DNA from: Cupriavidus taiwanensis
GTDB taxonomy: Bacteria > Pseudomonadota > Gammaproteobacteria > Burkholderiales > Burkholderiaceae
Assembly: GCF_900250115.1 (NCBI RefSeq)
Contig: NZ_LT984804.1
Span: 1,441,301 to 1,505,300 of the forward strand
DNA: 64,000 bases
Reading direction: 5' to 3'
Shown: positions 28,055 to 46,694 of the stretch, piece after piece
How the letters are laid out: each line of letters starts with the position of its first letter
Numbering within the stretch: the stretch's first letter is position 1
Notes under the pieces: model-generated
Databases searched by the model: none
Seen by the model: only the letters and a program-made list of their open reading frames with translations
What the model was told of the DNA's origin: nothing
Position numbers and translations under genes: made by a program

Positions 28055-29758
28055 ATGAAAACCCGCCTCACGCTGACCGCCCCGGAACCGACCCCGCCAT
28101 CCGGCTTCCCCAACGCGCCATCGCTTGCCGCGCTGCGCGCCTGGCACGCCGGCCTGACGACTCGGGAGGCCGTCGCCAGGTACCTGGGCGAGGAGCGGGC
28201 GCAAGGGCAGTCGTCGCGCAGCATTCTCGGACGCATCCGCCGTCAGCTTGCGGCCCATGCCCGCAGCCGCCAGCGCGAGGACCTGGCCCGGCTGTTCGAG
28301 ATTTCCGCCGCAGAGCGGGCGGAGCAGGGCAGGGCAGCGGACCAGGCCATCGAGGCACTGCGCACGCTGCCGCCGCCGGCGCCGGCGCCGGCCATCAGCG
28401 ACGACCTCGGCATGTGGCTGGCGCCGCGCACGGTCGCCGCGCTGCGGGCGCAGGGCATCGACACGCTGGCGGCACTGACTGTTCGGGTGCCGCGCCGGCG
28501 CCGCTGGTGGGCCGCGATCCCGGGCCTGGGAGCGGCCAGGGCCCGGCAGGTCGAAGCCTTCTTTGTCCGGCACCCGCAACTGACCGAACGCGCCCAAGCG
28601 CTGGTCGCGCAGGCGCCGCAGGGCATGGTCGTGCCATGGGAGCAACTGCGGCTGCCGCATGAAGTGAATGGGTCGCAGGGAAAGTTCCGCGCGCCGCGCG
28701 CGACCTGCACCCTCAATGCGGACAACGATTACGCGGCGATCCAGGCGTGGCTGGCCTTGCATGAGTCGCCAGCCACCCAGCGCACCTATCGCAAAGAGGC
28801 CGAGCGGCTGATCCTGTGGGCGATTGTCGAGCGCGAACGGCCGTTGTCGTCGCTCACCACGGAGGATGCGACGGCCTATCGCAGCTTCCTGCTGCGACCG
28901 GTGCCCCGGGAGCGCTGGGTAGGGCCAGCGAGACCGCGTACCTCGCCCGACTGGCGTCCGTTCACCGGCGGTCTGTCGGCGCGCTCCACTGCCCATGCCT
29001 TGTCCATATTGGGGGCGATGTTCCGCTGGCTGATCCAGCAGCGCTATGTGCTGGCCAACCCGTTCGCCGGCATCAAGGTGCGCGGAGGCGCGCGGACCGC
29101 GGCGCTGGACAGCTCGCACGCGTTCACCGAAGGCGAATGGCTGCTGATCCGCACCCTTGCCGACGGCCTAGAGTGGTCCTATGGCTGGGGCGGCCCGGCG
29201 GCCCAGCGGCTGCGCTTTGTGTTGGACTTCGGCTACGCCACCGGGCTCCGCGCCAGCGAACTGGTCGGCGCAACGCTGGGCGATATCGAGACCGACGGGC
29301 AGGGCGACCACTGGCTCGGGCTGGTGGGCAAAGGCAGCCGCGCCGGACGGGTCGCGCTGCCTCCGCTGGCCCGAACGGCGCTCAATCGTTATCTGGTCGA
29401 GCGCGGCCTACCGGTGACACCGGCTCGATGGGATCCCCGGACGCCGCTTATCGGCGGGCTGGGCAAAGAAACAGGCAGCGGCATAACCAGCACGCGCCTG
29501 TGGCACGTGGTGAGGCGATTCTTCGCCCAGGCGGCCGACATGATCGGCATAGACCATCCGGCCGCCGCGGAGAAGTTGCGGCGGGCCAGCCCGCACTGGA
29601 TGCGGCATACCCACGCGACCCATGCGCTGGCACGCGGAGCCGAGCTGACGACCGTCAGGGACAACCTCCGGCATGCCTCTATCTCCACCACATCCATTTA
29701 CTTGCATGCCGATGACGTGAAGCGGGCGCGGCAGCTCAATTCTGCTTTTGCGACCTGA
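28055..29758 (+). CDS. Tyrosine recombinase/integrase with long N-terminal (DUF3701-like) region
   Basis: 567 residues, longer than phage integrases. The first ~210 resemble the DUF3701-type extension found on Burkholderiales and plasmid integrases, including a helix-hairpin-helix-like IPGLGAARARQVEAFF. A SAM-like core-binding segment follows, then the catalytic domain: TGLRASEL (Arg, near 396), HWMRHTHAT (His-x-x-Arg, near 514), LRHASIS (His, near 538) and nucleophile Tyr 548 in SIYLH. All catalytic residues are present, so it should be active in excision or multimer resolution. Confidence 0.9.
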   Translation: MKTRLTLTAPEPTPPSGFPNAPSLAALRAWHAGLTTREAVARYLGEERAQGQSSRSILGRIRRQLAAHARSRQREDLARLFEISAAERAEQGRAADQAIEALRTLPPPAPAPAISDDLGMWLAPRTVAALRAQGIDTLAALTVRVPRRRRWWAAIPGLGAARARQVEAFFVRHPQLTERAQALVAQAPQGMVVPWEQLRLPHEVNGSQGKFRAPRATCTLNADNDYAAIQAWLALHESPATQRTYRKEAERLILWAIVERERPLSSLTTEDATAYRSFLLRPVPRERWVGPARPRTSPDWRPFTGGLSARSTAHALSILGAMFRWLIQQRYVLANPFAGIKVRGGARTAALDSSHAFTEGEWLLIRTLADGLEWSYGWGGPAAQRLRFVLDFGYATGLRASELVGATLGDIETDGQGDHWLGLVGKGSRAGRVALPPLARTALNRYLVERGLPVTPARWDPRTPLIGGLGKETGSGITSTRLWHVVRRFFAQAADMIGIDHPAAAEKLRRASPHWMRHTHATHALARGAELTTVRDNLRHASISTTSIYLHADDVKRARQLNSAFAT

Positions 29759-31186: not shown

Positions 31187-31364
31187 CTAGGGGCTGGGAA
31201 CGAAATTTTGAAAAAAATGGGGGAAAAATTATGCAAATCAACGATTCTCACCCCCAAGCATAGCTGTTCACATCTCGAGCAACTGCGGCTCCTGGAGGTG
31301 TGAGAATATGTAAATTGACATGGCGGCCGACAAGTTTCCAGGTGTCGCCATAACAAGGGGATAC

Positions 31365-33434
31365 ATGCGCATCCATCAAGTTGAGATCAAGAACTTCCGT
31401 CTTTTGGCCGGCGTTGAGCTTGTCCTTGAGGACCAGACGACTGTCATCGTAGGCCGGAACAATAGCGGGAAAACATCTCTATCGGAAGTCATGCGTCGGC
31501 TCCTGGCTGATGGAAGCGCAGCGTTCCAGCTGGAGGACTTTTCCAGTGCTTGCTACGATCACTTCTGCGAAGCCCTTGAAGCGCTGAACCAGGGCGCCGA
31601 AGAAGATGCCATTCGCGCGCTCGTCCCGGCCATCGAACTTCGACTGAAGTTCCAGTACGACCCCGCCCAACCGCAGTTGGGGCCCTTGAGCCCCTTCGTG
31701 ATCGACTTGGATCCTGCGTGTACTGAAGCGCTGATAGTGGTTCGCTATGAGGTGAAAGACGGTCAGCTGGCACGATTTCTCGAAGGCCAGCCCAAGGAGG
31801 CGCTAACACCAGAAACGCGCATCGCGTTCTTCCGTGCGTTGCGGGAGCGTATCCCAAATGAGTTCAGCGTGAAGATCTGGGCCGAGGATCCCAATGATCC
31901 GGTCAATCGTCGTCAGTTGCAGCCAGGCGCACTGCGCGGTTTGGTCAAGACCGGGTTCATTAATGCGCAGCGGGGCTTGGACGATGTGACATCGCGAGAA
32001 TCCGATGTGCTGGCTAAGACCGTGGAAGGGCTTTTCGCGACAGCATCCTCGCCGTCGGCCGATACGGCGGACAAGCAGATTGCCGAGGCTCTGAAAGGCG
32101 CCGTCCAGGACATCCAGACCCAGATCGACACGAACTTTGGTGGTCAGCTCAAAAGCCTGATCCCTGCGCTGCAGACCTTTGGTTACCCCGGACTGGGGGG
32201 GCAGGAGTTGCACACTGAAACCCTTCTGGACGTCCGAAAGCTACTGTCGAATTTCACCAAGGTTCGCTACGCGGGCTACAGCGGCATCACGCTGCCCGAG
32301 TCATACAACGGCCTCGGCGCACGCAACCTGATCTTCATCCTGCTGCAACTGGCTGGCTTCTACAAAGCGTTTCGCGCCGAGACCATCGAACCGGGCGTGC
32401 ATCTGATCTTCATCGAGGAGCCTGAGGCGCATCTACATCCACAGATGCAGGAGGTCTTCATCCGCCAGTTGGCCAAGATTGCGCAGAAATTGGTTGACGG
32501 CACGGAGGACAAGAGGCCTTGGCCGGTGCAGTTTGTTGTGTCTACGCACTCATCGCACATCGCCAATGCAGCCGGTTTCGAAAGCATCCGCTATTTCCTT
32601 GGCGCTCCAGTGCTAGGGGCGCAGGAAGGCATTCGGACGACCAGGATCAAGGACTTGCGCAAAGGGCTTAAGGACATAGCGCCAGAAGACAAGAGGTTTC
32701 TTCACCAGTACATGACGTTGACGCGCTGCGACTTGTTCTTCGCTGACAAGGCAGTCCTCGTCGAGGGGCTGAGCGAGCGGCTGCTGCTTCCGGTCATCAT
32801 GGCGAAACTGGAAGCGGCTGAACCCGCGAGTCCAAAGCTGTCGAGCCAATACGTGACAGTGATGGAGGTTGGTGGCGCCTATGCGCATTTGTTTTTTGAT
32901 CTGCTGCAGTTTCTCGAACTGCGCAGCCTGATCATCACGGACCTCGACGCTGTCGAGAAACCCGGCGGCAAGGCGTGTGCGGTTCACCTTGGTCAGCATT
33001 CCAGCAACGCTTGTCTGAAAGCGTGGTTCTCTGAGGACGATCCCTTCACATTGGCGGCCTTGCTTGCCAAGAAAGACACTGACAAGGTGCTTAAGGGAAA
33101 CCGCATAGCTTATCAATGTGCCGAGGAAAAGGATGGGCCCTGTGGGCGAACATTCGAAGACGCGTTCATCCTCGCGAATCCGAAGTTGTTCGGCCTAGTT
33201 GAGAAGAACCCTCAGGCACTAGAACTGGAAGCCCGCAACAAAGCGGAGGAATGGAAAAAATCTGAGTTCGCATTGAAGCATGCGATCGGCGAGACTGGGT
33301 GGGCCGCACCGGCGTACATTGTGGACGGCGTTCGCTGGCTGGCTCGCGGCGATGTTGTCGCGCCAGATCCGGCATTGGCATTGGCTGTGGAGGCGGCTGC
33401 CGCCCCCGTTGACGGAGGCGGTGTCAATGCCTAA
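31365..33434 (+). CDS. OLD-family ATPase/Toprim nuclease, GajA-like (Gabija)
   Basis: 689 residues from an ATG with AAGGGG 4 bases upstream. The ABC-type ATPase shows Walker A GRNNSGKTSL (near residue 30), Walker B LIFIEEPEAHLHPQ (near 347) and the STHSSH switch (near 392). The C-terminal Toprim nuclease shows VLVEGLSERLL (catalytic Glu, near 466) and ITDLDAVE (paired Asp, near 525). This is the class 2 OLD layout. It overlaps the UvrD-type helicase gene by 8 bases, the gene pair that defines Gabija phage defence, in which GajA nicks DNA. It is longer than the ~580-residue type protein. Confidence 0.88.
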   Translation: MRIHQVEIKNFRLLAGVELVLEDQTTVIVGRNNSGKTSLSEVMRRLLADGSAAFQLEDFSSACYDHFCEALEALNQGAEEDAIRALVPAIELRLKFQYDPAQPQLGPLSPFVIDLDPACTEALIVVRYEVKDGQLARFLEGQPKEALTPETRIAFFRALRERIPNEFSVKIWAEDPNDPVNRRQLQPGALRGLVKTGFINAQRGLDDVTSRESDVLAKTVEGLFATASSPSADTADKQIAEALKGAVQDIQTQIDTNFGGQLKSLIPALQTFGYPGLGGQELHTETLLDVRKLLSNFTKVRYAGYSGITLPESYNGLGARNLIFILLQLAGFYKAFRAETIEPGVHLIFIEEPEAHLHPQMQEVFIRQLAKIAQKLVDGTEDKRPWPVQFVVSTHSSHIANAAGFESIRYFLGAPVLGAQEGIRTTRIKDLRKGLKDIAPEDKRFLHQYMTLTRCDLFFADKAVLVEGLSERLLLPVIMAKLEAAEPASPKLSSQYVTVMEVGGAYAHLFFDLLQFLELRSLIITDLDAVEKPGGKACAVHLGQHSSNACLKAWFSEDDPFTLAALLAKKDTDKVLKGNRIAYQCAEEKDGPCGRTFEDAFILANPKLFGLVEKNPQALELEARNKAEEWKKSEFALKHAIGETGWAAPAYIVDGVRWLARGDVVAPDPALALAVEAAAAPVDGGGVNA

Positions 33435-35160
33435 GGTCGAATCACCTGCAGAAGCAGCAAGCATGCGCGCGCTCGAAACCATGTATGCCTGCCTTGGAGC
33501 GGGACAGAGCTTTCGTCTGGAGGCCGGTGCAGGTGCCGGTAAGACGTACTCGCTGATCAAGGCGCTCCGATTCCTGATTGAACGCAACAATGGCATATTT
33601 CCAAAACGCAATCAGCAGATCGCTTGCATCACCTTCACGAACGTTGCGAAGGACGAGATTGTAGCGCGGACAGACCGGAGCCCGTTGGTCTTCTGCGAGA
33701 CCAACCATGCGTTCTGTTGGTCGCTGATCAGCGGCTTCCAGAAGCCGCTCAGGGCGCTGGTCGAGGCGATGCCAGCATGGAAGGAAAAGATGGAAGAGGT
33801 TGGCGGAAGCTTGGGCAAACGCGCCATCGAGTACAACCTCGGGCATCGTTATATCCGCGACGATCGCGTGTCCATCCACCATGACGACGTCCTGCCGCTC
33901 ACTATCTCGCTCATGGTGCATGAGAAGTTCCGTCGCATGATCGCGGACCGCTTTCCGATCATTCTGGTCGACGAGTACCAGGACACGGACAACGATTGGG
34001 TCGAAGCGATCAAGTCCCATTTCTTGGGGCAGCCTGGCGCGCCGCTGTTTGGCTTCTTCGGCGACCATTGGCAGAAGATTTACGGCGGCGGATGCGGAAA
34101 GCTGGAGCATCCAAGCGTGACAGAGATCGGCAAGGAGGCCAACTTCCGGTCGGTCAAAGTTATTGTCGACTCCCTCAATCGAATGCGGCCTAAACTGCAG
34201 CAGTTCGTTGAAGACCCCGAGGCCGAAGGCCAGGTGCGCGTCTTCCATACGAACAATTGGCAAGGCGAGCGTCAAAAGGGCGCGCATTGGGGAGGGGATC
34301 TGCCTTCGGCAGACGGGCAGGCCACCCTGGAGCGCGTTAAGGTGGCGTTGCAACAGGATGGGTGGGATTTGGCACCCAGCCACACTAAGGTCCTTATGCT
34401 GACGCATAGGCTCTTGGCGAACCAGCAAGGCTATTCAAATCTGGCAGCTGCATTTCGTTACAACGAATCGTTCACGAAGAAGGAGCATGAGCACATTGCC
34501 TTCTTTGTGGATCAGTTGGAGCCTGCATGCGACGCCTTCACCGACCGCAGGTACGGCGCAATGTTCGAAGCGCTTGGTGGCACTACGCCGCAGATGCGCA
34601 GTCATTCGGACAAGGCGCGGTGGCACGATGCCATGACGCAGTCGGTCGCTCTTCGTGAAAATGGGACTGTGGGGCAGGTTGTTGAACACCTGCTTGCTCA
34701 GCGAAGGCCAAGACTTCCGGACGCCGTCGAGAAGCGCGAGCGAGAACTGCGCGACTTCGACAAGGGTGCGGGCATCGAGATGCCACGAGTGCTAGAAGAA
34801 CTGCAGAAACTTCGAGGTGTAGCCTATTCTGAGGTCAAGGCGCTTCGTCGCTATCTCGATGGTCACTCGCCGTTCGAGACGAAGCACGGTGTCAAGGGGG
34901 CTGAGTTCGAGAGCGTCCTGGTTGTGGTCGGGCGCGGTTGGAACCAGTACAACTTTGGTGAAATGCTGGAGCTTGCCGGCTCCCAAGCGGTTCCAACAGC
35001 GAAGGAAGTGGCATTCGAGCGCAATCGCAATTTGTTCTACGTCGCCTGTTCCAGGCCCCAGAAGCGGCTCGCCATCCTGTTCACCCAATTCCTGTCACCC
35101 GGAGCCATGGGAACCCTTGAGAACTGGTTCGGGGCGGATGCCGTTACGCCGGCCCCTTAG
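33427..35160 (+). CDS. UvrD/PcrA-like SF1 helicase, GajB-like (Gabija)
   Basis: 577 residues from the ATG at 33427; a long in-frame extension upstream overlaps the OLD gene and is not needed. Helicase motifs appear in order: Walker A EAGAGAGKTYSL (near residue 38), Ia ITFTNVAKDEI, Walker B ILVDEYQDTD (near 182), III FGDHWQKIYGG, V HGVKGAEFESVLVV and VI LFYVACSRPQKRL. Compact UvrD-type helicases next to an OLD nuclease are GajB, which senses nucleotide or DNA-end status and joins the GajA complex. The 8-base overlap implies coupled translation. Confidence 0.87.
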   Translation: MPKVESPAEAASMRALETMYACLGAGQSFRLEAGAGAGKTYSLIKALRFLIERNNGIFPKRNQQIACITFTNVAKDEIVARTDRSPLVFCETNHAFCWSLISGFQKPLRALVEAMPAWKEKMEEVGGSLGKRAIEYNLGHRYIRDDRVSIHHDDVLPLTISLMVHEKFRRMIADRFPIILVDEYQDTDNDWVEAIKSHFLGQPGAPLFGFFGDHWQKIYGGGCGKLEHPSVTEIGKEANFRSVKVIVDSLNRMRPKLQQFVEDPEAEGQVRVFHTNNWQGERQKGAHWGGDLPSADGQATLERVKVALQQDGWDLAPSHTKVLMLTHRLLANQQGYSNLAAAFRYNESFTKKEHEHIAFFVDQLEPACDAFTDRRYGAMFEALGGTTPQMRSHSDKARWHDAMTQSVALRENGTVGQVVEHLLAQRRPRLPDAVEKRERELRDFDKGAGIEMPRVLEELQKLRGVAYSEVKALRRYLDGHSPFETKHGVKGAEFESVLVVVGRGWNQYNFGEMLELAGSQAVPTAKEVAFERNRNLFYVACSRPQKRLAILFTQFLSPGAMGTLENWFGADAVTPAP

Positions 35161-35465
35161 TTGGTCGTCAAGGAAGTGCTCATATCGTTCAAATTGACCC
35201 TTATCTGCTTTACGCCAGCGACGCATAGCAGCGCATTGGCCGACGAGCTAGGGCTGGTAAGCTATGCCGCCGTGATGCCGCATCTTCTATCCACCAAAGG
35301 ACTGGTTCACGAAGTCCCTGGAATCAATGCTTGACCTTGGGGGTTAGGGCATGCAGCCTTCCAGCGATTCGAACGCCGGGGAGAGCCGCAATGAACACGT
35401 CGTCAACCCTTTTGTAGGCGCTGCTCTTTTTGCAGATCACTAAACGTGTTCGCGGAGGCGAGAAA
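35161..35465. other. Region between the Gabija-like pair and the helicase-nuclease operon
   Basis: About 305 bases with no confident gene. The GajB frame is followed immediately by an open 57-codon stretch (35161-35334, no ATG start) reading like a winged-helix fragment (SALADELGLVSYAAVMPHLL); it may be a relic. The strong ribosome site GGAGG at 35454-35458 belongs to the next gene. Confidence 0.4.
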
Positions 35466-38400
35466 TTGGCCAAAAGGCAATCCCGGACTGCGACGGCGAT
35501 TTTTCTCAAGGGTTTCAAAGAGCCCTATTTGCGCTCGAATGACCGCCCGTTCATCAAACTTCTGAACTGGTACACGGGCATCGGAAAGACTTACAACGCT
35601 GCAGCCTTCAGTATCGAGCTGTTTCTCAACTGTGACGTCATCCCGGTCTTCATCGCACCGCTGCAATCGCTCGTTTCTCAATTCAACGGCGAAGTGCGCA
35701 AGCACCAGGAGGACCGCAGCTACGCCGACGAGCTCGAACGAGAGGTGGTCGAGCGTGGTGCTGACATCCCCGTCTACCGGCTGTACTCGATTGACTACCA
35801 CGTCAACGACCGCACCTTCTTCAACGCCTGTCTCTCCCTGGTGCACTGGTTCGAGCGCCATCCGCAAGTTGTCGCGAAGATGGAACGCTCGCCCAAGCAC
35901 GCGGACACAGAGAAGAGCATTCGCAGCCGCATTCAGGAGCTGCGCGTCAAAGCGGCCTCATGCGAGCAGTCCAACTTCCTCGGCATGTCTCCGGCGGACG
36001 ACATTTACGAGGACACGAGAGCCGCATACCTGAGGTCAGCACGGCAAGCCCGCGGCCTGGCCGACAGGCTCGTCTGGAAGCTCATTCAACTGGACGTAGA
36101 AAGCCGGTCTGCCAATCGTGACGAAGAGCGGTACATGCAAGCTCGAGAGGTCGCGGAGCTGGTAGGGCGCCTCCATCCGCTGCAGGCCTTCCTTGATGCG
36201 CCGGGCATCATCGTGAGCACAGCTTCCAAGGCGCAGGTGGCACACAAGGTCTTTGCGGCTGACGGGAAGGGTGGCTTCAGGCAGCATGACTGGGAAAATC
36301 TGCCGCTATTTCTAGCGGAGCTCAATCGAGAGGAGAGCGAGCTTGGCCGTTTGGTGTCCCGTCGGCCGGATGCCGCACGCGTCGTCACATTCGTCGACGA
36401 GGAGGAGGATTCCTACTGGTACCTGTTCGACCAGCGCAAGTCGGCGGTGAACTCCGGGGGGCGGAATGATCTGAACTTGGTCATAACGGAGTTCTTCCAG
36501 TACTTCGACCTGAAGTGGCCGATGGCATTCGAGCGCCTGGAGCTGTCGGGACCCCGGCGAGGCCTGGCGAACAAGGTGTACGACCACCTCGAAGACTTCG
36601 CCCGTATCAGCAAGGGTCTAGAAGACGAGTTCAAGCTGGAAGCCGAACGCACGAAGGCGTCGTTCATTCTGTCGCAGCGCAAGGTGGAGCTTCTGCGCGC
36701 GAAGCTGTCCGAGCAGTGTTCGACCACGGCGGAGCGTTTCACCGACGAGGAGTTGCTGGAGGTCCTCACACAGCTCCATGAGCGCAATGACGCCCATGCG
36801 GACTTCAAGCGGTTCCGGCAAAAGGCACGAGTCCTTCAACGGATTCGCTCATACGTGCGGGAAATCTGGCAGCCAGGCCTGGGCTCCGACTACGACATTT
36901 TCGTGAACTTGCACGACCTCGTGGTGAACAAGAAGTTTTTCACCATGAGCCGCTCGACATACGGGGAAGTGCTGGACCAGCCAGGGCAGACCTTCTTCAC
37001 GGAGTCCGCTAGCGTGATGGACACGGAGTTCCTGCGGCAGGTTCAGCTTACGAAAGACACCGCGCACCAGACAATACGCCTGCAGTACCACGACGGAAAG
37101 ATCCCCGAGGGGTCGTACAGCCTGTTCGATTATCTTCGGCTGGTGGTCTTCATGGCTCGCGTCTTGGCGGCGACCAGCGGGGATGACGTCATCGAAATGT
37201 CCAAGGTGGACCAGGAGCGGTACCCCAGCCTGGACAAGTTCCGTTCAGACGTGCGCCGGCTGTTTGACGGCAAGATTGCCTCTGAGGGACTGGAGACCGA
37301 CGTGAGCGACAAGGAGCTGCTCACGGACTCATTCCTCTTCGAACACACCAAATCCGTGGTGACGCTGGAAGAGAGCCGCAACCAAGCCGAAGAGTACAAC
37401 AAGGAAGCGGACATCTGCCTCACGCTGACCATTACCTCTCTCCGCGCGACGCCCGAGGAAGACATTGTTCGAGCCCTCGGACGCACGAACGGCGTATACC
37501 TGATGAGCGCCACTGGTGGCCTGGATTCCGCCTCTTCGGGAGCCTTTAATACCAAGCACCTGCGCCGGTACTTGGAAGAACGCGGCGGCCATTTCTCGCA
37601 GATGGGGGACGACGAACTGGAGGTGGTTGGCGCCCGCGCACTGGAGTTGCTGAACAAGCGCGAGCGGAAGGTCGTAATCCTCGACGACGAGAACCCGGCG
37701 CCCACGTTCGACGCCTCGACTGCCTTCAAGGGGCTGTACCAACTGTTTGACGAGGCTCGCCCAAAGAAGGGCGAATCCGGTTACTCACAGTTGAACAGAC
37801 ACAAACGGAACGAACTGCAGGGCCTAGTCGCCAGCCTAGACAAGCTGATGGCGACTAGCATCCGCTCGGGCCTGGTTTTGTGCCAGACCCCTCAGCACGT
37901 GAAGAAGTGCCTAATTCGTCTAGCCAACTCCTCGCTAGGGCTGGTTATGCAGAAAGACACGACGGGCGACTACTTCGTGGTAAAGCCCCGGGTGCTCCCG
38001 ACCTATCGCGAGTTTGGACAGGCTGAAGAAATCCATATCATCCTGTACACGGCGGAACGCTTCCGCAAGAAGGACCGCAGCAAGACCGGCGCCGCCGACG
38101 AGGACGACGATAAGGGGCAGTTCAACAAGGAGCTGGAGGATGCTCTGGACATTAGCCGCAAGAAGGTGCTGCTCTGGACAGCATACGCGTCGGCGTCTCG
38201 CGGCATCAACTTTTTGACCAAGCAGCATGGCACTGAACGCGACTTCGAGCTGTTCTGCCTGCTTAATGACCCGTACTACACACGGCATACCCGTCCTGGC
38301 TCTAGCGGCTTCTCGATGGAGATGTTCCAGAGCTTCGCGCAGGTGCTGCGGGACGACGTTCCGGAGTGGGCGGCCATGTCCAAGGGCGACCTGCTGTTTG

Positions 38401-39587
38401 AATACTCGCGTATTCGCTGGAAACGCCTGCGTAAGGAACACGTCATTGACATCACTCGGACGGTCTTTCAAGCCCTCGGCCGCGGCGAGCGGCGACCCTA
38501 CGAGAAAATGCCGTGCCAACATCTGTATATCAGCTCCGAGGCTGCTCGGATGGTGCACCTCGGCCTGCGGCATGCGCCCGAGCTGCGCAAACGGGCTTCT
38601 CCAGCGCAACGCGCCGTCCTTGACACGCTGGTCTTGCATCACCGCAGGACAGGCATTTTTGCGTCCGCTGCTGAACGGGAGCGCCACCACGCTGAAAGCT
38701 TGCAAAAGGCGGTGGCGTTCAGGGAGTTCACCAGCTCAAGGCCCGCGCGCTTCCGATCTGACCCGGCAGCCCGCACGACGTGGGATCTGCTGTTCCGGTC
38801 CACCATGTTCACCGACCCGGTCAAGTACCTGGAGGACCTGCGGACCAGCGGAGTACCGGAGGCTTACTTAGACGGGTGCTTCGTTGAAATGCCAGCTGGT
38901 GCTGACGTCTACACCAGGCAGTTTTCCATGGCCGGCATGTCCGACTTAGTGATTACCGATGCCGACGACGGCACGGAAGCGTTCGACTGGACAGGCATGG
39001 TGGCGCCAGACAGCTTGATGTCGCGCCTCTCAGAAAGCACGCACCGCCTTCTGAAGGAATGGCGCGGCTTCCGTCTGGCAGACAAGACCAAGCGCCTCCT
39101 GCCGCAGCCCTGGTTCGTGACTGAAATCATGAAGGGCTACATCGCAGAGCTCGAGTTCGAGCAGTACGTTGGCGAACAGTTCAACGTTTGGGCGAAGGAT
39201 CTGCAGTTGGGCTGCGGCCCTGTCGAATATGTCCGGCCGGAACTGCACCCGCTCTATGCCGAACTCTACCAGCTCTTTGACTACTACCTGCGGCCCGCTC
39301 CGGATGTGTGGGTTGCAGTGGATTTGAAGAACTGGACCCGGAACACCGACAGCCTCAAGAAACAGCAGTTGCAGGAGACCGCGGAGAAGAAGCACGCCAA
39401 GCTTCGTGAGCTGCTACCAAACGCCACAGTTCACACGCTGTACGTCAACTTGCAGGGCGCCCACAAGTTTGCAGTGACGCGCCCGCCGCTGGGCACCATT
39501 CGCTTCATGGCCATGTACGTTCAGAACACCGGAGACGCCGGGTGGATGCCCAATGCGAACCTACGTGACGCCATTCTGGGGAAGTAA
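35466..39587 (+). CDS. Giant SF2-type helicase fused to a C-terminal PD-(D/E)XK nuclease
   Basis: 1373 residues from a TTG at 35466, chosen because a full GGAGG lies 7 bases upstream; a TTG at 35430 is in frame but has no ribosome site. Helicase elements seen: Walker A TGIGKT (37-42), a DEEE Walker B-like motif in VTFVDEEED (311-314), the SAT of motif III in YLMSATGG (681-683) and a motif VI-like SASRGINF (909-916). Long insertions separate them, recalling DinG/XPD-like spacing. Near the C-terminus P1279-D1280 and D1286-L-K1288 (APDVWVAVDLKNW) form a PD-(D/E)XK nuclease signature. The stop overlaps the next start (TAATG). I recognise no named system; a defence role is inferred from domains and neighbours. 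Confidence 0.82.
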   Translation: MAKRQSRTATAIFLKGFKEPYLRSNDRPFIKLLNWYTGIGKTYNAAAFSIELFLNCDVIPVFIAPLQSLVSQFNGEVRKHQEDRSYADELEREVVERGADIPVYRLYSIDYHVNDRTFFNACLSLVHWFERHPQVVAKMERSPKHADTEKSIRSRIQELRVKAASCEQSNFLGMSPADDIYEDTRAAYLRSARQARGLADRLVWKLIQLDVESRSANRDEERYMQAREVAELVGRLHPLQAFLDAPGIIVSTASKAQVAHKVFAADGKGGFRQHDWENLPLFLAELNREESELGRLVSRRPDAARVVTFVDEEEDSYWYLFDQRKSAVNSGGRNDLNLVITEFFQYFDLKWPMAFERLELSGPRRGLANKVYDHLEDFARISKGLEDEFKLEAERTKASFILSQRKVELLRAKLSEQCSTTAERFTDEELLEVLTQLHERNDAHADFKRFRQKARVLQRIRSYVREIWQPGLGSDYDIFVNLHDLVVNKKFFTMSRSTYGEVLDQPGQTFFTESASVMDTEFLRQVQLTKDTAHQTIRLQYHDGKIPEGSYSLFDYLRLVVFMARVLAATSGDDVIEMSKVDQERYPSLDKFRSDVRRLFDGKIASEGLETDVSDKELLTDSFLFEHTKSVVTLEESRNQAEEYNKEADICLTLTITSLRATPEEDIVRALGRTNGVYLMSATGGLDSASSGAFNTKHLRRYLEERGGHFSQMGDDELEVVGARALELLNKRERKVVILDDENPAPTFDASTAFKGLYQLFDEARPKKGESGYSQLNRHKRNELQGLVASLDKLMATSIRSGLVLCQTPQHVKKCLIRLANSSLGLVMQKDTTGDYFVVKPRVLPTYREFGQAEEIHIILYTAERFRKKDRSKTGAADEDDDKGQFNKELEDALDISRKKVLLWTAYASASRGINFLTKQHGTERDFELFCLLNDPYYTRHTRPGSSGFSMEMFQSFAQVLRDDVPEWAAMSKGDLLFEYSRIRWKRLRKEHVIDITRTVFQALGRGERRPYEKMPCQHLYISSEAARMVHLGLRHAPELRKRASPAQRAVLDTLVLHHRRTGIFASAAERERHHAESLQKAVAFREFTSSRPARFRSDPAARTTWDLLFRSTMFTDPVKYLEDLRTSGVPEAYLDGCFVEMPAGADVYTRQFSMAGMSDLVITDADDGTEAFDWTGMVAPDSLMSRLSESTHRLLKEWRGFRLADKTKRLLPQPWFVTEIMKGYIAELEFEQYVGEQFNVWAKDLQLGCGPVEYVRPELHPLYAELYQLFDYYLRPAPDVWVAVDLKNWTRNTDSLKKQQLQETAEKKHAKLRELLPNATVHTLYVNLQGAHKFAVTRPPLGTIRFMAMYVQNTGDAGWMPNANLRDAILGK

Positions 39588-41770
39588 TGCCTATTCAAAC
39601 ACTCGACCCGCAGGTTACCGCACGTGCGCGGCTGAACGCGCTCCGATTCAATTGCTCAGTGGCAGAAGCAGCGCAGCTCCTGGCCAAGTGGCAGGTCAGC
39701 CAAGGTAGTCTGCTTGTGCCCATCCCCGTGGCAATGCCCAAGGCCGAAGAAGAGGCTTCTCGCGGCGCGGGGTTTTTCCGGGAAAGGGCAAAGCTTGTGC
39801 GAGCCGAAATCGCGAAGGCGCTTGGACTGGAAGGGGAGGCCGCTTCGAAGCTGTCGTTCACGATGACGGGCAAAGACGCCTGGTACCTGGGCCCTCGCCC
39901 GAAGCTTGACGCTCCGTCGATGCTGGCCGCCGTGGCCGCGCAGCCGGCCAAGTTCATTGAACTCATGCTGCTGAAGGAGCTGATTGAATCCGCGGCCTTC
40001 GAGGAGGACACGTTCGTTCGAGGCGGCTTTGGGCCCAGTGTGTACCTGGGCAGCGTCAGCCAAGCATCGAAGAAGTACCTTCAGTTGGCCGAAGCTGAGT
40101 TCGAGGTCAACATGAAGCACGGCCTCTTGCTGTGTGATGTCAAGTCAAAACGGTTTGCTAGGAAGGCTTCTGCGGACGCAGAGACTGCTGCTGTAACGCG
40201 CCTCGCCACGGCAGGCGAAGGCTACCTCGTAGCAGTGACCCGTACCGTCCCAGGCGACTTTTTCGAGGTCGATGCGCGCAAGAACCCGATGGAGGGACTG
40301 AGCCTGGACCGCGAGAAAATCAGGCGAACCCGAATGTACTACCTCAACGTGCTCACGGAATTCGCGGCTCGCTTGTTCACCAGGGCTGGCATTCCTTTCG
40401 CATGCGAAACCTTCGTTGCGACCCACTACGTAGACGACGCGTACATTCCGCTCGAGCCGCTGGCCAACCTGCAGCGTCCCTTGGCCGTGGTGAACACCAC
40501 AATGGAAGCAATGGACCATGACGCCATTGCTCCTCTGGCGAGGTTCCCCGAGTACCTACCTGACTATCACGTTGCGGGCAACAAGAAAACGCATTTCCCG
40601 GCCCCGGATGTGCGAGTCGCAGATGGTGTACCCGTGCAGCTCGATGGCAGCCTAAATTACCTTTTCTTGAACGGCGAGGGCGATGAGGAGTCGGGGAGCA
40701 TCCGCCTCGCTAAGGGTGGTCCGGGCAGCGACAAGCAGCCGGTACGGCCTGAGGTTGCGTACACGGCACTGGCCAAGGGCGAGGGGAGGGCGGACCCGTA
40801 CACGGAAGCGAAGTTTCACAACCTGCTTGCGCGAGCGACACTCCAAGTATCCACGCAGGGTCTCGACTGCGGTCCCAGGGCGCTTGCGGCGCTCCGACCG
40901 GGCAAGGCGACGGACTCTGACGCACGTCAACTCCAGGAGGCTCTCAAGCGATGCCTCGTGGAACTATCGCTCAAGGAGGTACTGCTGGGTAAAAAGCCCA
41001 TTCTGGTTCCGTCGTTGCCTGACGCTGTCCCGCGGCAGCTGACACTTCTCGCAACCAGGCGAATCAAGAAGCCAGGCCGCCAGGCACCCGAACAGATGGT
41101 AGCGGCTGTCGACGTGACGGTCGACGGCAGTGCGGTGTTGGTGACACGGACTCGCCGCACCCCGTGGGGTAAGCCCAGCGCGTTGTTGGAGTTCGTAGCA
41201 GAGTTTCCCTTCCTGCAAGAGAGCGGCAAAAGCTGGATTCGGGACGGGCAGTTCTGGGTTATTGATGTCAGGACGGGCGACAGGTTGACCGTCTGGGCCG
41301 GCACGTTCGTGCCCAAAATCATCCTCAATGAAACCTATCCAGGCATCGAGGCAGCCATCGCCGCGCAAGACGACCACCAGGCTGCGCTGAAAAAGGAAGG
41401 CGGCAAGGGCCGACTCCTTTCCAAGAGCCGCGATTTCAACTTGCTACCGTACTACATCTCGATGTTCAGACCTGAGCACTCGAAGCACGGCGAGCGAATC
41501 GGGCTGAAGATGCCGGTGCAGGACTGTGGTTCGTGGGTGCGGCTCTTTGTGCCGCCGGAAGGCGGTATCAACGGCTCCGGGGACGCGCTTTCTGGCATGC
41601 GCGACGTGATGCACTACGGCGCCGACGGTGCTGTCAGCAAGGCCGGCTTGCTGGACCTGCCCCTCGTGCAGTTGTATCTGCACACCATGACCAACGGTGT
41701 GCTTGTCGGAGGAGACAATTCGAAGATGAGCGTGCTCGAGAAGCTTGTGCGTTTGGCCTTGGAGAACTGA
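39587..41770 (+). CDS. Large partner protein of the helicase-nuclease, family not recognised
   Basis: 727 residues, soluble, no signal peptide or membrane segment. It overlaps the helicase gene by one base (TAATG), so the two are co-translated. No catalytic motif is certain. The order Y405-x3-K409...STQ (422-424), then LKEVLLGKKP and VAAVDVT (505-511) is weakly like the MID-PIWI order of prokaryotic Argonautes (Y/K-binding pocket, sTQ, first strand of the RNase H fold), but a full DEDX tetrad is not evident. A divergent PIWI-RE-type protein is therefore possible, not shown. Function unknown. Confidence 0.75.
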   Translation: MPIQTLDPQVTARARLNALRFNCSVAEAAQLLAKWQVSQGSLLVPIPVAMPKAEEEASRGAGFFRERAKLVRAEIAKALGLEGEAASKLSFTMTGKDAWYLGPRPKLDAPSMLAAVAAQPAKFIELMLLKELIESAAFEEDTFVRGGFGPSVYLGSVSQASKKYLQLAEAEFEVNMKHGLLLCDVKSKRFARKASADAETAAVTRLATAGEGYLVAVTRTVPGDFFEVDARKNPMEGLSLDREKIRRTRMYYLNVLTEFAARLFTRAGIPFACETFVATHYVDDAYIPLEPLANLQRPLAVVNTTMEAMDHDAIAPLARFPEYLPDYHVAGNKKTHFPAPDVRVADGVPVQLDGSLNYLFLNGEGDEESGSIRLAKGGPGSDKQPVRPEVAYTALAKGEGRADPYTEAKFHNLLARATLQVSTQGLDCGPRALAALRPGKATDSDARQLQEALKRCLVELSLKEVLLGKKPILVPSLPDAVPRQLTLLATRRIKKPGRQAPEQMVAAVDVTVDGSAVLVTRTRRTPWGKPSALLEFVAEFPFLQESGKSWIRDGQFWVIDVRTGDRLTVWAGTFVPKIILNETYPGIEAAIAAQDDHQAALKKEGGKGRLLSKSRDFNLLPYYISMFRPEHSKHGERIGLKMPVQDCGSWVRLFVPPEGGINGSGDALSGMRDVMHYGADGAVSKAGLLDLPLVQLYLHTMTNGVLVGGDNSKMSVLEKLVRLALEN

Positions 41771-41986
41771 TAGCCGCTGCGCTGCGCGCAGATATCGAAG
41801 CGGACTGAACCGCAGCGAGAATCCAGAAAAAGCGGTGGCGCTGGTCTCGAGCAGGAAGCAAGTACAGAGAGGCGGCGGCCGCACGGGCCATTAAACATAA
41901 CGGTTCTTATGCGAATTTTGCATAACCTATGGCAACGCGCATGGGGCAAAAAGAAGCCGTAGCGATTCGCGCTATTCGTCAAGGAT

Positions 41987-42304
41987 CTATTCTGGCCCCC
42001 TGACGATTTCTCCCCACGAAAGTAGCGATGTGGCAGTTGTTCGCTTTATCGGTGCGAGCGCTTGCAGTGCGATGCTGACCAGCTGAACAGGCCTGATAAT
42101 CTCGCGGTCGACATCGTGAATTTTGGCTACCGTGGTATAGATTTCTTGCTGGTCTCCCGCACCTCGCCAAGCTTCTTTCAAGACGGCGCTGTAGTGACCG
42201 GTAGCTTGGGTACCGCTACCGTCATTGCTGATGTCGACGGCAGCAAGCAGCTTAACTGCCTGCTCATCGCCATCCGGCACCAGTTCTATGCGTACCCGCA
42301 ACAT
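41987..42304 (-). CDS. Small hypothetical protein (105 aa)
   Basis: The frame opens MLRVRIELVPDGDEQAVKLL and has the regular alternation of a small beta-sandwich-like protein (VDISNDGSGTQATGHYSAVL). Codon use looks like a real gene. It follows the 107-codon frame at 42329 by 24 bases and runs convergent with the helicase-nuclease operon. I do not recognise the family; similar short proteins occur in phage-like and mobile regions. Confidence 0.6.
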   Translation of the reverse strand: MLRVRIELVPDGDEQAVKLLAAVDISNDGSGTQATGHYSAVLKEAWRGAGDQQEIYTTVAKIHDVDREIIRPVQLVSIALQALAPIKRTTATSLLSWGEIVRGPE

Positions 42305-42328
42305 AGGTGAATTCCTTGTTTAGTCGGT

Positions 42329-42634
42329 TCATTGGGTGGGGTGGGCTTGCTCCATATCGTCAAGCTTGGCTCGAAGTGTTTCCACGAGCCAGCAGACAAA
42401 GCTTTCCCATCCTTCTTGGCTGATGGCTAGGCCTTTATCACTCTCGATCAGAACGCAGGTGGGTAGCTCTCTGTCAGTGAGCTCAGGATGGAGCAGCAGC
42501 CAGCGAGCCAGGATGCTTTCCAACTCGTACGGGACATCCTGGAGATGCAGGTAGGTACCGACCTCAGCTTCGAAGTCAGGAAGCCCGGCCGGCAACCAGG
42601 CCGATAAGAGGCGCATTTTCTGTTGCAGTGACAT
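42329..42634 (-). CDS. Small hypothetical protein (101 aa)
   Basis: The sequence from ATG 42634 starts MSLQQKMRLLSAWLPAGLPD and is mostly helical with a conserved-looking aromatic core (GWESFVCWLVETLRAKL). A TTG at 42652 would add six residues. It is first in a two-gene minus-strand unit with the protein at 41987. No domain recognised; it may be an accessory or immunity-type component of the island. Confidence 0.55.
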   Translation of the reverse strand: MSLQQKMRLLSAWLPAGLPDFEAEVGTYLHLQDVPYELESILARWLLLHPELTDRELPTCVLIESDKGLAISQEGWESFVCWLVETLRAKLDDMEQAHPTQ

Positions 42635-42814
42635 TGCAGATGGCCAAGACAACCCGTTTAGGTCCCATCTGTGATGGTAAAGCGGATTTCAGTGGCCGAG
42701 TCAAATGTTGGCCGAAGTGACCTCAGGGGGAACTGCGCACGGTCGCCAGAGCGCTGCCACTGAAAGTGAGATGGCCAAGGCGGAGCCGTCCAGGGCCGCC
42801 AAGCCATGGTTTTT

Positions 42815-42881
42815 CTTCCCGAGCGGGAAGTTTTGCCCGGTTGACCCAGACTTTTTCACCCAAATCTTCCCGCTCGGGAAG
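42815..42881. repeat. Pair of 16-bp palindromes, inverted relative to each other
   Basis: CTTCCCGAGCGGGAAG at 42815-42830 and CTTCCCGCTCGGGAAG at 42866-42881. Each has perfect 7-bp arms around a 2-base centre, the second is the exact reverse complement of the first, and their centres are 51 bp apart. They could be paired protein-binding sites or hairpins. Confidence 0.65.
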
Positions 42882-42918
42882 GATGAAGGCCGCGCCTCGA
42901 GCGCGAGTCGGTGAACTC

Positions 42919-42947
42919 TTGACGTAAAGCCGTGCGGAAAAGATAAA
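42919..42947 (+). promoter_or_regulatory. Sigma-70-like promoter
   Basis: TTGACG (42919-42924), 17-base spacer, GATAAA (42942-42947). No clear gene follows within 300 bases on the plus strand, so it may be a relic or drive a short transcript. Confidence 0.45.
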
Positions 42948-43008
42948 AAGTGTCCCATCAATCATTGCACGACACTTTTACGTAGAGTTACCGGACAGCT
43001 TTACGTTA
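42920..43008. repeat. Nearly concentric nested inverted repeats with ACGTAAA motifs
   Basis: Outer 18-bp arms (42920-42937, 42991-43008) match at 15 of 18 positions; inner perfect arms AAAAGTGTC (42946-42954) and GACACTTTT (42971-42979) share almost the same centre. The motif ACGTAAA occurs three times in both orientations. Confidence 0.5.
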
Positions 43009-43075
43009 GAGGACTATGCCTGGCGTCTCCATTGCATTCAACCGGGCAGGCTGAATACCATGGGCAGCGCCTCGG

Positions 43076-43119
43076 GCGGACATTTCTACTTAGCCAGAAG
43101 CGGACATTACAACTTAGCC
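43076..43119 (+). repeat. Two 20-bp direct repeats, possible IS21-type end
   Basis: GCGGACATT-NNN-ACTTAGCC occurs at 43076-43095 and 43100-43119, a 24-bp period, 17 of 20 bases identical. Repeated transposase-binding boxes of this type are typical of IS21-family termini; no IS21 gene is present, so this would be a solo end. Confidence 0.5.
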
Positions 43120-43326
43120 GCTACATGTGTGTTTCGCATAATAATCATTATGTTAAATCATGGTTTGTCTGGCGCAACCGATGCGCTCCGACTCACCCTC
43201 CGACCCAGACCCACCCCTAATCTTCCCAGAAGACAAATATCGATACGCGAACTTCTACCTTTGCGGCATACGTATCCCTCCTTACGATCACGTTTCTGCA
43301 ACCGCCCGGGTAACGCTCGCATGGCG

Positions 43327-44193
43327 TCAAGCGCCGGCCAGCCCGCGCTGCAAGGCCGTCTTGAGCATCGAGAAGACATGTCGCGTGACAGGATTGACCG
43401 CGTTGGGACGCGCCCACAGGTAGTACGTCACATCAGGCAGTCGCGGCAAGCCGTCGCTTTCGCCAAGTATGCGCATATCCGCCTGCAGCAGGTCGATGCT
43501 GCGCGCGGTGATGCCCAGCCCGCCGCGCAGCGCTGCTTTGATGCCGATCAGGCTCGGGGCCAGGTAGGCGATGCGCCAAGGCACGCCTGCCTGGCTCAGT
43601 GCCTCGAGCGAGAGTTTGCGGAACAGGCTCGGTTCGTCGGCCAGGATCAGCGGCACGGCCGTGCCGCGCTCGTAGGCGAAGTCGGCGGCGCAGACCCAGA
43701 TCGTCGGCGTGGTGCGCAGCGCAATCCCGTCAAGCTTACTGTCCTCGCGCGTGGACACCGTCAGGTCGATCTCGCCGCGCCGCAGCGACTCCATCAGGAA
43801 TGGGCTTCTGCCGACATGGATTTCCAGCCGCAAGGCCGGCGACGACCGCGCGATATGCGACAGCAGTACCGGCAGGATGGTATCGGCGACGTCGTGCGGC
43901 GCGCCGATCCGCAGCGATCCGGTCAGGTCACCTTCGCGCAGCACGCGCAGCGCCTCGTCGTTGGTGCTGAGCATCTGGCGCGCGTATTCGAGCAGCTTCT
44001 TGCCATGCCGCGTGAGCCGCTTGCCGCGGCCGTGCCGCTCGAACAGGGCCAGGCCCAGTTGCTCTTCGAGCCGTTGCATCTGCTGGGTGACCGCCGATTG
44101 CGTGCGCTGCACTGCCGCCGCGGCCGCGCCAAACGTCTCGTGGTCGGCAATGGCTACCAGGGTGCGGAGCAGGTCGAGATCCAGATTACGCAT
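43327..44193 (-). CDS. LysR-family transcriptional regulator
   Basis: 288 residues with the N-terminal LysR helix-turn-helix ([20 protein letters not shown], residues 9-28, then [17 protein letters not shown]) and a two-lobed effector domain starting [15 protein letters not shown]. It is divergent from the cysteine-dioxygenase-like operon across 125 bases and very likely activates it in response to a sulfur-containing inducer. Confidence 0.9.
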
Positions 44194-44318
44194 TCATTAG
44201 TTCCGCTGATGGGTTTTTGTCACGCATTAAGTGGTTTTCCAACCAGGGGTTCATTACAGTGAAACACGAAGCATCGTTGTATCCCCGAAAAACCGAGATT
44301 GCAAGGATTGATCGCACC

Positions 44319-44906
44319 ATGTCCCTCGCAGCACAGCGCCAGTCAGCCGTTGGCGAAACCATCGCATCCATTAGGAATATCGTAGCCAAAGGCGGTGTCA
44401 CCCGTGAGAGCCTCGCCCAGGTACTGCCGCTGGTGGAGGACCTGGCCGCCCGCACCGAGTTCTGGGGCGAAGCCGACTACCCGCCCCCCGAAGCTAACGA
44501 ACGCCAGGCGCGCTATCTGATTGCCGAGGACCCGGACCAGACCTACGCGCTGTACCTGAACGTGATGCGGCCGGGCAAGCGCATTCCGCCGCACAACCAC
44601 ACCACGTGGGCCTGTGTGGCCGGCGTGAGCGGCATTGAGTTCAATGATGTCTATATCCGCACGGACGACGGCAGCCAGCCGGGTGTCGGCACGCTCGAAC
44701 ACGACCGTACCGTGGAGGTCGGCCCGCGCCACGGCATCGCGCTGCTGCCCGACGACATTCATGCGGTGGAAATCCGCGGCGACGCTGTCATCCGCCATCT
44801 GCACATGTACGGCCGCTCGCTGGAAACGCTGACCGAGCGGCGGACGTTCGACCTGGAAACGGGGCGCTGCCAGGTCATGAACATGGGCGTACAGACCCGC
44901 CGCTAG
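44319..44906 (+). CDS. Cysteine dioxygenase-like cupin
   Basis: 195 residues from the ATG at 44319 (AAGGA 11 bases upstream); an in-frame ATG at 44217 would add 34 poorly structured residues. The iron ligands of the family are visible as [13 protein letters not shown] (two His) and the later IRHLHMYG (third His), in a cupin barrel with [17 protein letters not shown]. Such enzymes oxidise cysteine, 3-mercaptopropionate or similar thiols to sulfinates. It leads a sulfur-themed operon. Confidence 0.83.
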
Positions 44907-45005
44907 ACCGCTGCCCGACGGGGCAGCGCCCCCGCCCCCTTTTTCCGAGAACACCTCCGGATCCTCCGCGTGGCGCGAGGACACCCCCCTTTTCGCCCAA
45001 ATTTC

Positions 45006-46628
45006 ATGAACCAAGCTTCCCAAGCCGCCTGTTCCGTCGTGGATGCCACCACCCTCAAGGGCTGGCTGCACGATGCCGACGAAATCGCGCTGTTCGACGT
45101 GCGCGAGCATGGCCAGTATGGCGAGGGCCATCCCTTCTATGCCGTTCCCCTGCCCTACAGCCGGCTCGAACTCGATGTGGGACGCCTGGCACCCCGCCCC
45201 GGCACGCGTATCGTGGTGGCAGACGATGGCGACGGCGTGGCGCAGGCCGCCGCCAGGGCCCTGGCGCGCCTTGGTTACACGAACGTCTTCGTGCTGGACG
45301 GGGGCATGGCGGCATGGGTGGCTGCCGGCTATACGCTGTTCGCCGGCGTCAACGTGCCGTCCAAGACCTTCGGGGAACTGGCCGAGCATCACTACCACAC
45401 GCCGCGCGTCAGCGCCAGGGAACTGGCGGCCATGCAGGCGGACCCCGGGGCGCCGCTGGTGCTCGACGGGCGTCCGGCCAGCGAATTCCGCAAGATGAGC
45501 ATTCCGGACGCGATCTGCTGCCCTAACGGTGAGCTTGCCTATCGCCTGCGCGACCTTGTGCCCGATGCCACCACGCCCATCGTGATCAACTGCGCTGGCC
45601 GCACGCGCAGCATCATCGGTGCGCAGACGCTGATCAATTTCGGCGTCGCCAATCCGGTTTATGCGCTGGAGAACGGGACCCAGGGTTGGTACCTGAACGA
45701 TTTCGCGCTCGAACACGGCAGCACGGCACGCTATCCGGACAACGGCAGCCCACACGGCCTCGATGCCGCGCGCGATGCGGCCGGGGCGCTGGCACGGCGT
45801 TTCGAGGTGCCGCACATCGAGGCGGCGCAGGCGGCGGCCTGGTTGGCCGAAGCCCACCGATCGACGTTCCTGTGCGATGTGCGTACCGCCGAGGAGTTCG
45901 CCACGCAGACCCTGCCGGGCGCGCAGCACACGCCCGGGGGCCAGCTGATCCAGGCCACGGACCAGTTTGTCGGCGTACGCCGCGCCAGGCTCGTGCTGTT
46001 CGACGCCGACGGCGTACGAGCGCCGGTGGTAGCCAGTTGGCTGCGTCAGATGGGGCACGACGCCGTGGTGCTCGCGGGCGGCCTCGAAGCGGGGCTGGCC
46101 ACTGGCGTGCGCGCCGCGCATGGCCCAATGCAAGACCTCACCGCGCTGCCCGCCGTCAACGCCGCGCAACTGGCAGCTGGCATCGCGAACCAGTCGATGC
46201 TCGCGCTCGACCTGCGCGGCAGCATGGCCTATCGCGCCGGCCACATTGCAGGCTCCCGCTGGTCTACTCGCGCGCGGCTGGCGCAAGACCTGAGCGGCGT
46301 GCCGCAAGACACCACGCTGGTGCTGGTCGGCGACGCGGATGCCGCCGATCCCGCCGAGCTGGCCGCGGCCGACCTCAATGCGCTCGGCTATCGCGACCTG
46401 CGCAGGCTGCAGGGCGGATTTACGGCGTGGCGCGATGCAGGCCATGCCGTGCGCGAAGGCGCCGATACGCTGCCCGATGCACGGTGTATCGACTACCTCT
46501 TTTTCGTGCATGACCGCCACGACGGCAACAAGGCCGCCGCGCGGCAATACCTGGCCTGGGAAACAGGCCTGATTGCGCAACTCGATGCCCAGGAGCTGGC
46601 CACGTTCCGTTTCCCCTCGCTGGGCTGA
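45006..46628 (+). CDS. Four-domain rhodanese-like sulfurtransferase
   Basis: 540 residues made of about four rhodanese modules of ~120. The first has FDVREHGQYGEGHPF and the second INCAGRTRSIIGAQ with an active-site cysteine in a C-A-G-R-T-R loop. The third (LCDVRTAEEFATQTLPGA) and fourth (LALDLRGSMAYRAGHIAG) look structural, their active cysteine loops being replaced. No signal peptide. It likely moves or oxidises sulfane sulfur released by the neighbouring dioxygenase and lyase. Confidence 0.88.
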   Translation: MNQASQAACSVVDATTLKGWLHDADEIALFDVREHGQYGEGHPFYAVPLPYSRLELDVGRLAPRPGTRIVVADDGDGVAQAAARALARLGYTNVFVLDGGMAAWVAAGYTLFAGVNVPSKTFGELAEHHYHTPRVSARELAAMQADPGAPLVLDGRPASEFRKMSIPDAICCPNGELAYRLRDLVPDATTPIVINCAGRTRSIIGAQTLINFGVANPVYALENGTQGWYLNDFALEHGSTARYPDNGSPHGLDAARDAAGALARRFEVPHIEAAQAAAWLAEAHRSTFLCDVRTAEEFATQTLPGAQHTPGGQLIQATDQFVGVRRARLVLFDADGVRAPVVASWLRQMGHDAVVLAGGLEAGLATGVRAAHGPMQDLTALPAVNAAQLAAGIANQSMLALDLRGSMAYRAGHIAGSRWSTRARLAQDLSGVPQDTTLVLVGDADAADPAELAAADLNALGYRDLRRLQGGFTAWRDAGHAVREGADTLPDARCIDYLFFVHDRHDGNKAAARQYLAWETGLIAQLDAQELATFRFPSLG

Positions 46629-46694
46629 ATCCGAAGCGCCTGCAGTCCACGAGCCAGGCCCCACCATCCGCCACAGAAATTTCGAGGTCGCCCC

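Follow-up and report, generated by a model that had tools for sequence, protein, structure and literature searches.

A predicted ApsAB-type gene pair, divergent and betaproteobacterial, beside Gabija in Cupriavidus taiwanensis

Two described systems, ApsAB and DdmDE, stand closest to a two-gene operon that we analysed in Cupriavidus taiwanensis. In E. coli, ApsA is a superfamily 2 (SF2) helicase with a C-terminal PD-(D/E)XK nuclease, and ApsB is a loosely Argonaute-like protein that carries the MID motif Y[X]3K[X]nQG[X]nK and ends in Asn743. Both are required for plasmid loss, which is abolished by the helicase substitutions K221A and E533A and by K413A in MID, and partly impaired by K1435A in the nuclease (PMC11096173). 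The ApsAB activity published in 2024 is antiplasmid, and phages are not met in the portion of that account used here (PMC11096173). In DdmDE, the Argonaute DdmE is guided by DNA and has no catalytic activity of its own; it recruits DdmD, which combines a helicase translocating 5' to 3' along single strands of DNA with a nuclease that cuts (PMC12409362). The ApsB-type MID motif is reportedly missing from DdmE (PMC11096173). The operon lies in a stretch of 64,000 nucleotides (the window: NCBI RefSeq assembly GCF_900250115.1, contig NZ_LT984804.1, positions 1,441,301 to 1,505,300, forward strand) and encodes a 1373-residue helicase-nuclease followed by a 727-residue partner. A first-pass annotation made from the sequence had proposed it as an undescribed defence system. 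Here we argue that the pair very probably belongs to the ApsAB antiplasmid family as a divergent member from the betaproteobacteria, structurally allied to DdmDE, with its activity predicted.

The two genes and their conserved motifs

Conservation in the helicase protein was read from an alignment of 41 sequences (the window's own and 40 homologues at 43-91% identity) and from a wider one, A7, which also takes in three ApsA-type proteins of another order. For the partner, 55 aligned sequences were used, together with an 11-row alignment, A8, that includes three ApsB-type proteins of another order. The features of the pair are listed below in window coordinates, with the support for each in brackets.

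35466..39587, forward strand: ApsA-like SF2 helicase with C-terminal PD-(D/E)XK nuclease, 1373 residues, TTG start (frames, motifs, homology, model)
35574..35591, forward strand: Walker A, TGIGKT, residues 37-42 (T37, G38, G40 and K41 invariant in A7)
36396..36407, forward strand: helicase motif II, DEEE, residues 311-314, DELH in E. coli ApsA (D311 and E312 invariant in A7)
37506..37514, forward strand: helicase motif III, SAT, residues 681-683 (alignments)
38190..38213, forward strand: SASRGINF, residues 909-916 (S909, A910, R912, G913 and F916 invariant, N915 nearly so)
38469..38492, forward strand: helicase motif VI, QALGRGER, residues 1002-1009, QAVGRVER in E. coli ApsA (alignments)
39279..39281, forward strand: nuclease acid D1272 (invariant in both helicase alignments)
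39321..39329, forward strand: nuclease D1286-L-K1288 (D1286 and K1288 invariant in both helicase alignments)
39587..41770, forward strand: ApsB-like, Argonaute-like protein, 727 residues, ATG start (homology, model, MID motif)
40799..40813, forward strand: MID guide-pocket motif, Y405-x3-K409 (invariant)
40856..40861, forward strand: MID motif, Q424-G425 (invariant)
40973..40975, forward strand: MID motif, K463 (invariant)
41765..41767, forward strand: C-terminal Asn727, where E. coli ApsB ends in Asn743 (alignments; Thr in the L005 clade)

The two frames, of 1373 and 727 residues, overlap by one base in TAATG, at the coordinates claimed for them by the first-pass annotation. This one-base overlap was found in 5 of 13 printed junctions, the distant locus L005 among them, and the others have ATGA or short gaps. 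Walker A, DEEE, SAT and SASRGINF had been read at the same residues and are conserved in the 41-sequence alignment, in which the key residues of the named helicase motifs are invariant or nearly so; motif VI had not been mentioned. The nuclease signature had been placed partly correctly: D1286 and K1288 are invariant, the aspartate in the 'PD' at 1279-1280 is unconserved, and the upstream acid is D1272. The invariant E1228 may be part of the nuclease motif too. The helicase motifs that mark ApsAB (GxGK[ST], DExx, SAT and QxxGRxER) are all present in the 1373-residue protein, as is the C-terminal PD-(D/E)XK nuclease pattern D...D-x-K (D1272, D1286, K1288). In the partner, all five MID residues (Y405, K409, Q424, G425 and K463) are invariant both in the 55 aligned sequences and in A8. 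D560 is the only invariant acid within residues 484-727 across A8, and we infer that the PIWI-like part of the protein would be catalytically inactive.

The predicted model of the 727-residue protein matched Argonautes in a structure search, DdmE best, and with the model of the helicase, which was made without the first 173 residues, the best 16 solved chains listed were all DdmD; some of these alignments extend to the C-terminus of the model.

We found 71 homologues of the 1373-residue protein and 145 of the 727-residue protein (the window's own entry counted; 120 listed). The ratio of nonsynonymous to synonymous substitution rates (dN/dS) between the window pair and six of the intact related loci was 0.065-0.245 in 10 of 12 comparisons, those in which dS was unsaturated, and 0.065-0.124 against the two nearest loci, showing that both genes are under purifying selection. 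Given these homologue counts and dN/dS values, the pair is not a product of chance. Moreover, the helicase gene directly precedes the partner gene, with both intact, in 11 of 13 loci compared; only pieces of the partner gene are left in L015, L018 and the plasmid locus L030. The first-pass proposal of a helicase and nuclease within one operon was right, and a role of the partner in recognition, also proposed there, probably holds. The pair is real and intact, and probably functional as a defence system.

Relationship to ApsAB and DdmDE

Pfam returned one sub-threshold ResIII match for the 1373-residue protein (17.3 bits; cut-off 22.5) and no match for the 727-residue protein, NCBIfam and PHROGs matched neither, and no family in PADLOC-DB 2.0.0 matched either protein at E up to 0.1. 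This covers Hachiman, Zorya, Druantia, DISARM and Mokosh, to none of which the first-pass annotation had been able to assign the pair. Searching the PDB by sequence, with the single proteins and with profiles of their families (E up to 10), gave no DdmD or DdmE chain and nothing relevant. A pPIWI-RE triad, raised from the helicase, the nuclease and RNase-H-like strands, was set aside, DdmE and ApsB being the better fit and neither protein matching the pPIWI-RE Pfam families at E up to 1.

Sequence comparison instead led to a named system. A search of the phylum with the helicase profile matched 4 of 398 genomes, namely the window's own and three of the same class and another order, which we take to be gammaproteobacteria proper. 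ApsAB is encoded in the loci from these three (L026-L028), each time with GFGKS and DELH; QAVGRVER is present in two of them and QAIGRIER in L026. Among 5426 complete E. coli genomes, 146 match the ApsB gene of L028 at 80-90% DNA identity, all on chromosomes, and 142 of the 146 matches span at least 80% of the gene. An E. coli locus from a public genome (L037) has Y409, K413, Q431, K489 and N743 in ApsB and GFGKS at 218 in ApsA, as published, and its DELH, SAT and QAVGRVER lie 2 residues later than the published positions. In blastp against two sequences, the window partner aligned with E. coli ApsB at 24% identity over 543 residues (E 1.4e-17), and the helicase with E. coli ApsA at 21% over 842 columns (E 2.4e-11). 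With family profiles (Z set to 5000), the E values were 4.7e-23 for E. coli ApsB and 5.6e-24 for ApsA. Profile-profile comparison, in which the other-order rows were kept separate, extended over 669 columns and nearly the full length for ApsB (E 1.5e-25), and over 837 columns from about residue 435 on for ApsA (E 8.4e-24); the ApsA homology covers the last two thirds of the helicase protein. For ApsB, the L005 clade, whose protein record names Cupriavidus lacunae, bridges both sides, and a third search for proteins, made with a distant alignment, reached this clade only (5 proteins). A maximum-likelihood tree of 14 helicases, which has long branches, a midpoint root and no DdmD sequence in it, separated 4 ApsA of the E. 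coli kind from 10 betaproteobacterial proteins by a fully supported branch; by this phylogeny, the betaproteobacterial family is a separate clade.

Several observations weigh against an assignment to ApsAB. Identity with the three other-order pairs is low, at 17-19% for ApsA and 20-24% for ApsB, and in the L005 clade the partner ends in Thr in place of Asn. The ApsA profile match stops short of the first half of the helicase, where Walker A and DExx are aligned only in the multiple alignment. E. coli ApsA also has about 180 extra residues before Walker A (position 218 as opposed to 38), and regulation or target may therefore differ. Furthermore, by the predicted models the closest solved structures are those of DdmDE among the matches listed, although the DdmD matches of the helicase model are weak, with TM-scores of 0.23-0.27 and a whole-chain root-mean-square deviation of 24-28 A. 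Since no ApsAB structure is among the structural matches listed, this fold ranking cannot choose between ApsAB and DdmDE.

These structural matches would also suit a DdmDE system proper, with a DNA-guided Argonaute of the DdmE type, in place of ApsAB. We consider this very unlikely: DdmD and DdmE chains of the PDB went unmatched up to E 10 even with profiles that did match E. coli ApsA and ApsB, and the Y-x3-K...QG...K motif, which DdmE is said to be without (PMC11096173), is invariant in the window family. Sequence homology and the guide-pocket motif point instead to ApsAB, and the models match DdmD and DdmE best; the pair is very probably of a known kind. The first-pass annotation was right about the machine and wrong about its novelty, since the outcome it had named as refuting its proposal, both genes matching a named system with confidence, was obtained. 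It had also described the partner as having no recognised family; the model is Argonaute- and DdmE-like and the sequence is homologous to ApsB, yet Pfam, NCBIfam, PADLOC and PHROGs see none. The PADLOC search it had advised thus matched neither protein, and ApsAB was reached by the sequence comparisons above.

A third gene, distribution and island setting

Of 14 loci with an intact helicase gene, 5 have one or two copies of a third gene, encoding about 540-580 residues, ahead of it; another two of the 14 (L005 and L011) have too little upstream sequence to contain a whole gene. The five loci with a full third gene are L008, L009, L014, L017 and the plasmid locus L029, and in 4 of them it overlaps the helicase start by 4 bases. 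Pfam recognised only a short N-terminal Glyoxalase_8 stretch, in 3 of the 4 proteins scanned. The region upstream of ApsA yielded no third gene in the E. coli locus or in three other loci of that kind, and by this distribution the gene is an accessory of the betaproteobacterial branch. The window has a trace of it.

35242..35382, forward strand: degenerate third-gene remnant, about the last 45 residues (15.7 bits; model positions 497-541 of 544)

The best of 600 mononucleotide-shuffled frames scored -0.3 bits against the same model. A longer remnant in L016 covers the last 88 model positions (70.5 bits), and L006 and L007, which are near relatives of each other, have traces near noise in the same place (2.8 and 5.1 bits, with stray hits elsewhere at 0.1 and 1.1). 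Across 349 genomes of the order, all matches were short, at 41-49 model positions, and comprised three N-terminal ones elsewhere and the window remnant, and a plasmid search with one paralogue as query matched only the L029 record. Such patterns suggest that the third gene was probably lost more than once.

A remnant where some relatives have a full gene could mean that the window copy is decaying and inactive. This is very unlikely, because both main genes are full length with every motif present and have a dN/dS of only 0.065-0.124 against the two nearest loci, the third gene was not found before E. coli ApsA or the three other ApsA genes, and the near-intact relatives L006 and L007 also lack it except for their faint traces. 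Our guess is that the third protein has a part in supplying guides or in control. A bolder proposal would set the betaproteobacterial clade apart from ApsAB and DdmDE as a distinct third type that originally had three parts. In it the third protein, translationally coupled, with its Glyoxalase_8-like N-terminal segment and two tandem copies in three loci, would supply or license guides or gate the Argonaute; it would be dispensable, and in the window it would have been worn down to the remnant. We regard this as rather unlikely.

The system is rare. Searches for each gene of the pair over 349 genomes sampled from the order found it only in the window's own, and the same single genome was returned from 369 in a class-wide search with A1. 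The partner gene was present in 3 of 40 relatives, once as a fragment. No relative was among 22 pattern stretches in viral contigs, and phage records gave no match to the pair. The nearest tree row to the window helicase is from Azonexus, of another family, at 90% identity, whereas the partner of another Cupriavidus (D384) is only 53% identical to that of the window, a pattern that fits horizontal transfer. L029 is a 365-kb mobilizable plasmid (NZ_AP029020.1, Acidovorax sp. DW039) with the three-gene form beside a TIR-domain gene; this plasmid may use an antiplasmid-type system against rival plasmids.

In the window, the pair sits in a stretch of 55-60% G+C with flanks of 61-71%, and it lies behind the following neighbours.

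28055..29758, forward strand: tyrosine integrase with DUF3701, left island edge (profile scan)
31320..33434, forward strand: Gabija GajA, a separate neighbouring system (PADLOC, E 1.2e-289)
33280..35160, forward strand: Gabija GajB, a separate neighbouring system (PADLOC, E 1.7e-263)

The Gabija system is complete, lies directly upstream of the pair, and has overlapping GajA and GajB open frames. A close relative (G019) matches the left flank and most of the integrase, at 96.5% identity up to 29676, and on the right shares only 1.1 kb (41891-43016, 93.8%). Between these common edges it carries a different cargo of 8.2 kb (L031 9417-17649, in place of window 29677-41890) with Shedu and another Gabija. 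Since the common edges enclose other defence genes, the integrase site has the appearance of a defence hotspot, in which the pair would be one of several interchangeable cargoes. No empty site was found, the best flank-gene matches lying on different contigs in four relatives (G006, G010, G011, G019), and no convincing direct repeats were among those listed at the island ends. An insertion sequence at 29991-31191, between the integrase and Gabija, has a DDE transposase gene (30156-31127, minus strand) and 20-bp terminal inverted repeats (29991-30010 and 31172-31191). To the right of the pair, a 21-bp inverted repeat (42815-42881; 95% complementary, 25-base loop) lies between the partner gene and a LysR-type gene, and an element of about 145 bp (about 43016-43161) at the right edge common with G019 has copies elsewhere in the genome and in several relatives. 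The open frames at 43060-44262 and 44343-46667 are probably not genes.

Neighbours at other loci were compared over 15 sources, all called genes by all-against-all blastp and chosen genes only by profile. Shango genes adjoin the pair in 4 of the 15 (L006, L007, L010, L012). Shango has been reported in islands with apsAB (PMC11096173), and in L037 ApsA is preceded by an ATP-binding protein and by a DEAD/DEAH helicase, which fit Shango as a candidate. The defence context proposed in the first-pass annotation is therefore borne out by the adjoining Gabija and the interchangeable cargo in G019, and the recurrence check that it advised found the two genes intact and adjacent in those 11 of 13 loci, and Shango next to the pair in those 4 of 15 sources. 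An Orf5/HEC-06-type gene lies just downstream of the pair in L011, and a gene for a 1397-residue protein with a PIN-TPR-GreABC domain does so in L017 (8771-12964). L010 has a WYL/WCX gene (4056-5093) between Shango and the pair, and divergent WYL-domain genes lie beside pairs of the E. coli kind in L026 (13089-13961) and L027 (12826-13776). A WYL gene neighbour has been reported for ddmDE (PMC12409362).

Proposed mechanism and comparison with described systems

We propose that the 727-residue protein would hold a short nucleic-acid guide by its 5' end, either DNA, as in DdmE, or RNA, and that the guide would pair with invading (plasmid) DNA. The partner, itself non-cutting, would then recruit the 1373-residue protein, which would load on the opened DNA and move by ATP hydrolysis, and its PD-(D/E)XK domain would cut the DNA so that the plasmid is lost. 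By analogy, we infer that the window pair acts like its relatives, on plasmids or on mobile DNA of other kinds. ApsAB membership would also be compatible with phage or conjugative DNA, not small plasmids, as the natural target, and the pair does stand beside Gabija, at an integrase site that holds Shedu and Gabija in a relative, both of which are listed as antiphage systems (PMC12904381). The characterised relatives, E. coli ApsAB and DdmDE, nevertheless act on plasmids (PMC11096173, PMC12409362), and island company shows defence, not target. We therefore see such a target as possible but as the less probable one.

If this assignment holds, the plasmid-removing Argonaute family, itself young, gains a branch that the four profile libraries used had missed, and annotation tools could detect it once profiles of this branch are added. 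Large plasmids are common in Cupriavidus and its kin, and for this reason a plasmid-clearing pair bears on plasmid ecology. How guides are acquired is described as poorly understood (PMC12904381), and the way in which such Argonautes obtain their guides or are restrained could be tested directly with the recurring third gene.

Among described systems, Gabija (GajA/GajB) adjoins the pair upstream and also has a helicase, yet it is a separate known system. The pPIWI-RE systems likewise combine a PIWI-type protein, a helicase and a restriction-fold nuclease, but as three separate genes with a DinG helicase (PMC3702460), whereas helicase and nuclease are one protein in the window. DdmDE of Vibrio cholerae and Lactobacillus casei has the two-part layout and, as far as the predicted models go, both folds in common with the window pair; it differs in having no detectable sequence similarity and in reportedly lacking, in DdmE, the MID motif that the window partner has (PMC11096173). 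ApsAB of E. coli ST38 shares the gene order, the helicase-nuclease and Argonaute-like proteins, the motif set, the guide pocket, the C-terminal Asn and detectable homology. Compared with it, the window pair is only 17-24% identical and has about 180 fewer residues before Walker A and DEEE for DELH. Two of the three other-order loci with ApsAB of that kind (L026, L027) have a divergent WYL gene, and none was among the 19 window frames scanned; several betaproteobacterial loci, unlike ApsAB, carry a third gene.

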